Shown: positions 26,118 to 28,771 of the stretch, in pieces
Layout of the letters: the number at the start of each line of letters is the position of its first letter
Numbering within the stretch: position 1 is the stretch's first letter
Source: a virus
Virus record (IMG/VR): IMGVR_UViG_3300028800_000170
Span: 1 to 42,000 of that record
Strand: one strand, 5' to 3'
Length of the DNA: 42,000 nt
Notes under the pieces: model-generated
The model's input: only the letters and a program-made list of their open reading frames with translations
The model's database searches: none
What the model was told of the DNA's origin: nothing
Made by a program: the position numbers and the translations under genes

Positions 26118-26295
26118 AATGGCAATAGAAAAAATACAATGGAGAATTCGTAATATAGTTGATAACATATCAACGTGCCTTCTTTTAGAGAAAAGAAAAG
26201 AAATTGATCTACATATTAAAGATCTTAACATTGCATTGGATGTACTTAATAAATTAAAAGAGGTGGAAAATGAACCAATCAGAACAGCTGAATGA
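26104..26295 (+). CDS. Small helical protein before ERF
   Basis: A 63-residue protein (MTDIKMAIEKIQWRIRNIVD; HIKDLNIALDVLNKLKEVEN) predicted to be helical, with heptad-like spacing. It overlaps the gene before and the ERF gene after. No family is known. Confidence 0.5.
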   Translation: MTDIKMAIEKIQWRIRNIVDNISTCLLLEKRKEIDLHIKDLNIALDVLNKLKEVENEPIRTAE

Positions 26296-26923
26296 GTTAG
26301 CTACAGCTTTAGCCAAGGCACAAGCAGAGATAGGCAACGCAGAAGAGGATAAGTCCAACCCTCACTTTAAAAGCAAGTATGCCACCTTAGCATCTATCTG
26401 GGACGCTTGCCGTGGACCGCTCACCAAGTATGGGCTATCTATCTCGCAGATGGCAACCGTAGAGGATGGTAAGCCCGTGTTTGTCACCCTCCTTATGCAC
26501 TCCTCCGGGCAGTGGATCAGGTCAACATTCCCTATCACACCGACCGTCAAGGTGCAGGAGACCGGTAGCCAGATCACCTACCTAAGACGTTATTTCCTTA
26601 GCTCGATAGCCGGCGTTGCGCCAGGTGAAGTGTTAGACGACGACGATGATGGAGAGGTAGCTATGGGCAGGAAGCCTGTCAAAACGACCTATCAAAGTGA
26701 TAGTCACAATGACACTCCTATGCCACCTCAGCCTCCAATAGCTTCTAAAGATGACGTTGATACACTCATGTCTCTAGTAAACAAGTGCCCTAAAGAGAAG
26801 CAAGAAAACTTTGCCAAGATCATCGTCGATAAGTACGAGGGTGATAAGTACAAGATGGGTAAGAAGTTTTGCGAGACGCAGACGCAGGGAGCGCTTAAGT
26901 TCTTAGGGGAGCAGGCGTGTTAA
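26270..26923 (+). CDS. erf: ERF family single-strand annealing protein
   Basis: A 217-residue ERF-superfamily recombinase, as in P22 Erf, that anneals complementary single strands. Diagnostic pieces are NELATALAKAQAEIGNAEED, NPHFKSKYATLASIWDACRG and the core ETGSQITYLRRYFLSSIAGV, close to the family's G-S-A-I-T-Y-A-R-R-Y. A flexible Asp-rich linker (LDDDDDGEV) leads to a helical C-terminal part. It pairs with the YqaJ exonuclease three genes downstream. Length is usual for the family. Confidence 0.9.
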   Translation: MNQSEQLNELATALAKAQAEIGNAEEDKSNPHFKSKYATLASIWDACRGPLTKYGLSISQMATVEDGKPVFVTLLMHSSGQWIRSTFPITPTVKVQETGSQITYLRRYFLSSIAGVAPGEVLDDDDDGEVAMGRKPVKTTYQSDSHNDTPMPPQPPIASKDDVDTLMSLVNKCPKEKQENFAKIIVDKYEGDKYKMGKKFCETQTQGALKFLGEQAC

Positions 26924-27118
26924 GTGGATTGGATTGATCTTGAGAAAGAATGGCCACTTCCCGGTACAGTAGTAGATGTTTTACTAGTTGATAAATATGG
27001 TTCGTCACATATTGCATATAATGTTTTTTACACACAAATAGATTACAGAGCAGCTAATTTTATGAAAGAAGTTAAATGGCGGTATCATATACCGACCGAA
27101 GAGGAGAGGGGATGTTAA
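26924..27118 (+). CDS. Small DUF551-like protein (putative)
   Basis: A 64-residue protein from GTG at 26924, immediately after the ERF stop. DWIDLEKEWPLPGTVVDVLL and KWRYHIP resemble the W-I-x-V-x-x-x-x-P-x-x-G-x-x-V-L-V strand order of DUF551. Its last bases contain the ribosome site and first start codon of the methyltransferase, and its stop directly touches the second start at 27119. Confidence 0.45.
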   Translation: MDWIDLEKEWPLPGTVVDVLLVDKYGSSHIAYNVFYTQIDYRAANFMKEVKWRYHIPTEEERGC

Positions 27119-28107
27119 ATGGGTTGGATCTTTTTAGCGGAATTGGGGGAATCTCAAAAGCCCTCGAGCAATGGGTTAGAACAATCGCCTATTGCGAAAT
27201 CGACCCATATTGTCAAGGAGTCCTCCTCTCTAGAATGGAATCTGGAGATATTGACAAAGCCCCAATCTGTACCGACATCAAAAGTTTACAACTTCCATCT
27301 CCGCTCAACAATTGTGTCGATATCATATTCGGGGGATTTCCTTGCCAAGGGGTTAGTGTTGCAGGACTTGGAAAAGGCTTGGCAGATGAGCGAAGCGGAC
27401 TATTTTATGAGATCGTCCGGCTCTGTCGCGAAATTAAGCCCCGATTTATCTTCTTGGAAAACGTGCCAGCCATCACTACTAGAGGAGGAACAGAAGTGGT
27501 CAGGGAAATTGCCGCGTTGGGGTATGACTGTAGATGGTGCGTTATATCCGCTGCGTCCGTTGGAGCATTACATCGTAGAGAGAGATGGTTCTTATTGGCT
27601 CACGCCAAGCACCATGGAACATCTGCCGGTGAGAGAGGGGGAAGCCCTGGAGAATGCTCTACATCGGGGCAAGAACAGGGACAGCCGGAGGAAGGTATCG
27701 GGAAGGTTGAACGAACAGGTGGCTTATCCTCAGATGTGGCCAACACCGTCCGCCAGGGATTGGAAGGATTCGGGAGACGAGCCGGCAGCTCAAGCGAGGA
27801 AGAGTCCTTGCCTTCCAGCAGCTGTGAAGATCAGAATGGCAACACCGACAGCCAGCCAAGCAACAAAACCGATACTTGCACCGGTTCCATCGGTAGTAGC
27901 GGGGAAGCATGGAGAGACGACGCAGCAGAGTGTTGGCCGTTTGAATCCAGAGAGCATTGGCAAGAGGTTGTGTCCACGATGGGTAAGTGTTCTGATGGGA
28001 TTTCCCACCACGTGGACAGATTGCGAGCCTTGGGTAATAGCGTGGTTCCAGTCCAAGTCAAAGAAGCGTTCGAAATCTTAATGGGTATTAAAGATGGGAA
28101 GAATTGA
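27112..28107 (+). CDS. DNA cytosine-5 methyltransferase
   Basis: A 331-residue m5C methyltransferase. Motif I is LDLFSGIGG (SAM binding), the catalytic motif IV is GGFPCQGVSVAG near residue 80, motif VI is FIFLENV, motif VIII LHRRERWFLLA, and motifs IX-X RLRALGNSVVPVQ. The region between VIII and IX is low in complexity (GSSSEEESLPSSSCEDQNGN), and this is where the +1 frame looks most protein-like. Start ATG 27112 has AGGAG five bases upstream. It likely modifies phage DNA against host restriction. No partner endonuclease is seen. Confidence 0.93.
   Translation: MLNGLDLFSGIGGISKALEQWVRTIAYCEIDPYCQGVLLSRMESGDIDKAPICTDIKSLQLPSPLNNCVDIIFGGFPCQGVSVAGLGKGLADERSGLFYEIVRLCREIKPRFIFLENVPAITTRGGTEVVREIAALGYDCRWCVISAASVGALHRRERWFLLAHAKHHGTSAGERGGSPGECSTSGQEQGQPEEGIGKVERTGGLSSDVANTVRQGLEGFGRRAGSSSEEESLPSSSCEDQNGNTDSQPSNKTDTCTGSIGSSGEAWRDDAAECWPFESREHWQEVVSTMGKCSDGISHHVDRLRALGNSVVPVQVKEAFEILMGIKDGKN
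27119..28081 (+). CDS. Overlapping +1-frame gene inside methyltransferase
   Basis: A 320-codon open frame shifted +1 from the methyltransferase, lying almost wholly inside it. The protein is not random: SSWKTCQPSLLEEEQKWSGK, LPRWGMTVDGALYPLRPLEH, MWPTPSARDWKDSG and PRWVSVLMGFPTTWTDCE match a pattern I know from phage methylase-associated proteins (repeated W-P-T-P-x-A-x-D and a closing L-x-P-x-W-V-x-x-L-M-G-x-P-x-x-W-T-D). The ATG at 27119 lies seven bases from the other start and seven from GGGG of the shared ribosome site. Function unknown; it may be a separate protein or reached by frameshifting. Confidence 0.6.
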   Translation: MGWIFLAELGESQKPSSNGLEQSPIAKSTHIVKESSSLEWNLEILTKPQSVPTSKVYNFHLRSTIVSISYSGDFLAKGLVLQDLEKAWQMSEADYFMRSSGSVAKLSPDLSSWKTCQPSLLEEEQKWSGKLPRWGMTVDGALYPLRPLEHYIVERDGSYWLTPSTMEHLPVREGEALENALHRGKNRDSRRKVSGRLNEQVAYPQMWPTPSARDWKDSGDEPAAQARKSPCLPAAVKIRMATPTASQATKPILAPVPSVVAGKHGETTQQSVGRLNPESIGKRLCPRWVSVLMGFPTTWTDCEPWVIAWFQSKSKKRSKS

Positions 28108-28771
28108 TATAAAGCAGGGGAGCCCTAAATGGAAGGCTCTCCGGCAAACAAAGATCACCGCTACCATGGCTTCTTCTATCATGGCTATGAACCCCTATAA
28201 GAGCGTCTATCAGCTCTTTGAAGAACTAACAGGGCTAAAGGAAGAAACACCCCCCAATGAAGCGATGCTCCGTGGCACTGCACTTGAGCCTTTAGCTCTT
28301 GATGCCTTTAATACCGAAACAGGTTTTCTTTTTTGCCCCGCTGTTTGGCAATCTGACGAGCACCCTTGGGCGATGGCCTCTCTTGACGGAGCCGTCGTTA
28401 TTGGTTCTGAAGTGAGAGCCATTGTCGAGATTAAATGCGGGAAGACAGCTTTTAAACAAGCATTGAAGGGTGAGATAGCTCCTTATTATCATTGCCAGAT
28501 GATGCATCAGATGATGGTTTGTAATGTCCCTGAGATGGAATACTATGCCTATTGGGAAGGGAATGGTGTCAGAATTAAAATAGATCGGGATCAGGAGTTT
28601 ATAGATAAGATGGTGATAGCTGAAGAAAAGTTCTATAACGACTGGCAGAACCTTATTCCACCTGTAATTGAATCGGCTATATGGGACGTTCCTTATGAAA
28701 GTTATATTGAACAATGCGACCAAATCGGACTCGCTATTAAAGAAGAGTTGACCAAGGATAAGAAATGTTAA
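28094..28771 (+). CDS. YqaJ-family exonuclease (lambda Exo type)
   Basis: A 225-residue recombination nuclease. Motifs are SPKWKALRQTKITATMASSI at the N-terminus, RGTALEPLALDAF (acidic E), the catalytic ASLDGAV and VEIKCGK (E-x-K), and YYHCQMMHQMMV, all in the order of YqaJ/lambda Exo PD-(D/E)xK enzymes that degrade 5' ends and feed single strands to an annealing protein, here ERF. It overlaps the methyltransferase end by 14 bp. Length is normal. Confidence 0.92.
   Translation: MGRIDIKQGSPKWKALRQTKITATMASSIMAMNPYKSVYQLFEELTGLKEETPPNEAMLRGTALEPLALDAFNTETGFLFCPAVWQSDEHPWAMASLDGAVVIGSEVRAIVEIKCGKTAFKQALKGEIAPYYHCQMMHQMMVCNVPEMEYYAYWEGNGVRIKIDRDQEFIDKMVIAEEKFYNDWQNLIPPVIESAIWDVPYESYIEQCDQIGLAIKEELTKDKKC

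Follow-up and report, generated by a model that had tools for sequence, protein, structure and literature searches.

Can a single stretch of phage DNA encode both halves of a cytosine-5 DNA methyltransferase in two overlapping reading frames? The question is raised by an m5C methyltransferase gene in positions 1 to 42,000 of IMG/VR virus record IMGVR_UViG_3300028800_000170, a 42-kb virus contig. Here, "the window" refers to this whole 42,000-nucleotide stretch. An earlier note, made from the sequence alone, reported that a 320-codon +1 frame stays open inside the gene and proposed either a widely conserved overlapping gene of phage Dcm-type enzymes or a C terminus reached by frameshifting. We find that the observation is correct and that the first proposal is supported. 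The +1 product, which the note did not identify, very probably supplies the half of the enzyme that picks the DNA target.

The methyltransferase open reading frame (ORF) (frame 1, here called alpha; 331 amino acids) spans positions 27112 to 28107, and the +1 ORF (beta; 320 amino acids) lies wholly inside it at 27119 to 28081; both are on the plus strand. The two ATGs are 7 nt apart and share the Shine-Dalgarno stretch AGGAGAGGGG (27102 to 27111), in which AGGAG ends 5 nt before the alpha ATG and GAGGGG ends 7 nt before the beta ATG. The motifs W-P-T-P-x-A-R-D-W, PRWGM...G-x-LYPL, and LMGFP-x-x-WTD, reported in the earlier note, are present in beta. The gene lies between an ERF-family recombinase gene and a YqaJ-family nuclease gene (26270 to 28771). 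Megablast of the window against phage records gave no match.

The open +1 frame is not due to chance. The note's estimate of about 2e-7, from (61/64)^320, is correct, but a fairer null model keeps the frame-1 protein and permutes its synonymous codons. This procedure produced 7.0 stops on average in the +1 frame, and none of 20,000 shuffles had zero. Conversely, permuting the synonymous codons of beta produced 14.4 stops on average in frame 1 and never zero in 5,000 shuffles.

Homologs were found far beyond the window. Beta relatives keep the nesting in viral contigs, in genomes (presumably prophages) of Acinetobacter, Pseudomonas, Chromobacterium, and others, and in named phages such as Acinetobacter phage ABMM1 and Salmonella phage S9-5. 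Because sampling by beta could bias this result, the search was repeated with alpha alone. Of 80 viral loci, 66 carry motif IX in a nested +1 ORF, 1 has it in frame 0, 10 gave no hit to the motif expression, and 3 had no clear ORF. Of 160 further loci found with beta, 148 are nested by at least 100 codons, all in +1. Homologs with the same nesting occur in hundreds of loci, although some contigs occur in more than one scan and about 160-170 are non-redundant. Usually only one of the two proteins is annotated, but Paenibacillus phage Jacopo annotates both nested genes, and many mycobacteriophages annotate two adjacent "DNA methylase" genes. Escherichia coli PT62 carries two DNA cytosine methyltransferase genes in one prophage region (locus L453, 43 to 1029 and 3001 to 3738), the second of which is a near relative (94.5%) of the S9-5 nested gene.

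Substitution patterns were used to determine which frame is constrained. In a +1 overlap, the third codon position of alpha is the second of beta, and the third of beta is the first of alpha. In 24 pairs that share no locus, substitutions at alpha positions 1, 2, and 3 number 71/43/212 in motifs IV-V and 54/37/112 around motif X, which is normal for alpha, but 403/182/168 in the variable region and 105/45/54 at motif IX, which is normal for beta. The inversion in the variable region is seen in 23 of 24 pairs, so the +1 frame is the constrained one there. In 62 loci, +1 stops observed versus expected from synonymous shuffles were 0 versus 50 in motifs IV-V, 0 versus 121 in VI-VIII, 0 versus 75 in the variable region, and 2 versus 32 at motif IX. 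Frame 1 is also kept open, with 13 stops in the variable region of 196 loci against 700 expected. Alpha in this region is rich in S, G, E, Q, and R and poor in hydrophobic residues, which reads as a tether to motif X.

The catalytic motifs are located in alpha. Alpha matches PF00145 (1.2e-35) over residues 3-171 only and phrog_363 (3.5e-61). It contains motif I (LDLFSGIGG, 27124 to 27150), motif IV (GGFPCQ, with the catalytic Cys, 27331 to 27348), motif VI (LENVPAI, 27454 to 27474), motif VIII (RRERWF, 27574 to 27591), and, after a low-complexity stretch, motif X (ALGNSVVP, 28027 to 28050). The +1 reading of the stretch leading into motif VIII is the conserved beta sequence LPRWGMTVDGALYPL (27509 to 27553), and both frames are constrained here.

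Motif IX is found in beta only, at 27968 to 28015 (LCPRWVSVLMGFPTTW). A profile of the conserved beta block LNPxWVEWLMGxPxGWT scored 41.8 bits in beta of the window and at best -3.8 in alpha. Scanned over seven canonical enzymes, its top position is motif IX in five: four retrieved enzymes (in three of them 29-30 residues before motif X; in the fourth, the motif X expression found nothing) and M.HhaI. The other two did not rank motif IX first. A local hhalign run with a small canonical set was inconclusive, the global run placed the beta block on motif IX, and a fragment alignment that placed beta pieces on alpha was discarded. Joining alpha to beta on paper after motif VIII extends the PF00145 match of the window protein from residue 171 to 301, but with a gain of only 3.4 bits, and three other paper fusions did not extend that far. 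In the window type, the W of motif IX and the G of motif X are exactly 17 nt apart in 287 placements in related loci. Three loci (L237, L412, and L451) keep the cassettes described below in +1 but motifs IX and X in the alpha frame, with 39 nt between them, a difference of 22 nt that also changes the frame; as three loci share this arrangement, it is taken as a variant. In two viral records that appear to come from isolate genomes (L103 and L137), an apparent indel puts motif IX in the alpha frame, and these are possibly decaying genes.

Single-frame and split relatives link these states. Mycobacteriophage Tweety gp72 and other actinophage enzymes hold motifs I-VIII, LPTP cassettes, IX, and X in one frame, and 21 viral loci were scored as fused. 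Eagle (gp78/gp77) and kin split them as I-VIII and cassettes-IX-X, with about 60 codons of +1 overlap. Two related contigs (L366 and L367), one split in +1 and one single-frame, may represent a recent transition. An AF2 model of a single-frame relative (L392; pTM 0.66) aligns to M.HhaI at Z 22.8 over 231 residues and 3.4 A. Its catalytic, IX, and X parts are confident (IX and X segments at pLDDT about 80-91), while most of the cassette stretch stays below pLDDT 50.

After motif VIII, beta is a string of one to six segments, most of 28-44 residues, each opening with xTP. The window has three such cassettes, at 27596 to 27733 (WLTPSTMEH...), 27734 to 27835 (MWPTPSARDWKDSG...), and 27836 to 27967 (MATPTASQATKP...). 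Thirty-seven cassette pairs are at least 75% identical between enzymes whose alpha parts are under 60% identical, and 30 of these are in a different slot. This is the behavior expected of exchangeable target-recognizing domains, and the cassettes are best read as such; that each reads one target is an inference.

The position at which the +1 frame opens maps the likely beta start in each group. The 137 NELALF-group loci have no +1 stop from the alpha start to motif VIII bar one. The LDLFSGIGGF and remaining loci have stops at the expected rate until about 10 codons before PCQ (motif IV) and almost none after, which provides an internal control. The window's group has none from 50 codons before PCQ on. 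In the NELALF group (e.g., loci L253 and L269), the tandem starts read (G/A)TGAATGAG; alpha often starts with GTG, and the beta ATG follows 4 nt later. All 38 non-NELALF loci with an upstream +1 stop have a start codon between that stop and 20 codons past PCQ, 27 of them with a Shine-Dalgarno-like 4-mer.

Taken together, these data support, with high confidence, a two-subunit cytosine-5 DNA methyltransferase encoded twice in one stretch of DNA. Alpha is the catalytic and AdoMet-binding domain (motifs I-VIII and X), and beta carries the cassettes and motif IX. Beta is probably initiated independently, here at the ATG 7 nt after the alpha ATG and in other clades at +4 nt or at an internal start just before motif IV. 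We infer from sequence alone, without expression data for beta, that beta is translated and docks on alpha to supply the small DNA-reading domain, giving an enzyme that methylates phage DNA against host restriction, with specificity set and swapped through the cassettes. A broader reading, somewhat more likely than not, is that a large phage family encodes its DNA specificity as a recombining array of recognition cassettes in a second frame laid over the catalytic gene, so that one exchange event rewrites both the specificity subunit and the linker of the catalytic subunit while both frames stay open, with fused, split, and nested states traceable within one family.

The strongest alternative, although unlikely, is frameshifting, as proposed in the earlier note; in this reading, ribosomes slip into +1 after motif VIII to make one chain of motifs I-VIII, cassettes, and IX, and unshifted ribosomes make alpha with motif X. 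Single-frame relatives show that the fused chain is a natural form, and the paper fusion of the window protein extends the PF00145 match to motif IX. However, a shift near motif VIII does not need +1 to be open across motifs IV-VIII, where no or almost no stop is seen; the frame is kept open for 100+ codons upstream of the first cassette, starting at a clade-specific point that offers a start codon. In the NELALF group, +1 is open from the alpha start in 137 of 137 loci, with an ATG at +4 nt in 124 of 230 loci overall, and the fused product would lack motif X. It is still less likely that beta is a separate protein with another role (regulator, inhibitor, or host-targeting factor) that happens to overlap the methyltransferase. 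Beta alone has no Pfam or NCBIfam match, a PDB sequence search with the beta profile gave nothing meaningful, and beta modeled alone is poor (pLDDT 64.5, no PDB match), but motif IX is in beta and missing from alpha, and beta is homologous to the C-terminal part of single-chain methyltransferases. That +1 is open only as a by-product of frame-1 composition and conservation is contradicted by the synonymous shuffles, the inverted codon-position pattern, the fused and split relatives with the same peptide in an ordinary frame, and cassette exchange, although in motifs I-V conserved beta residues largely mirror conserved alpha residues and substitution is alpha-like.

Long same-strand overlaps with selection shown in both frames are rarely established in prokaryotes and their viruses. 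This one spans almost a whole gene and recurs across phages and prophages of many bacterial groups. It makes alpha-only annotations and clonings of these phage enzymes suspect, as they would lack motif IX and probably the recognition domain. The fused, split, and nested series also offers a natural system for asking how overlapping genes arise.

The architecture itself is known. M.EcoHK31I (YGGCCR), a two-polypeptide m5C methyltransferase (Lee, Kam and Shaw 1995), has motifs I-VIII and X on the large subunit and motif IX only on the small subunit (PMC3404938), and its beta gene appears to lie inside alpha in another frame. The literature places the predicted TRD of that enzyme on alpha; in the present loci, the constrained variable region and the cassettes are in beta. 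M.EcoHK31I is a restriction-modification enzyme, and the present loci are phage or prophage genes, many with several cassettes. Apparently new are the prevalence in phages and prophages, the evidence of selection in both frames, the placing of the recognition cassettes in the hidden frame, and the fused, split, and nested series; our literature searches, which covered few subscription papers, returned no description of a phage version. M.AquI likewise has its catalytic and recognition parts in two polypeptides, but motifs IX and X are both on beta, a partition matched by the Eagle-type relatives (gp78/gp77); in the window, motif X is on alpha and the genes are nested. The multispecific Bacillus phage m5C methyltransferases (SPR, phi3T, and H2) carry target-recognizing domains in tandem (cited in PMC8936443) but are single chains, while here the tandem array is read from a second frame of the catalytic gene. 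Beta is a member of PHROG 1008 "DNA methyltransferase" (E value, 1.4e-17; residues 71-302), a label that does not say that the product is the out-of-frame half of the enzyme. In one locus (L004, 2967 to 4304), alpha is interrupted after motif III by an inserted stretch with an HNH-like sequence, while the downstream beta frame is intact. This may be compared with the ShiLan insertion in actinophage methylases (PMC11855218), which, like beta, is an out-of-frame ORF inside a phage DNA methylase but is an HNH homing endonuclease inserted as a mobile element and not part of the enzyme.
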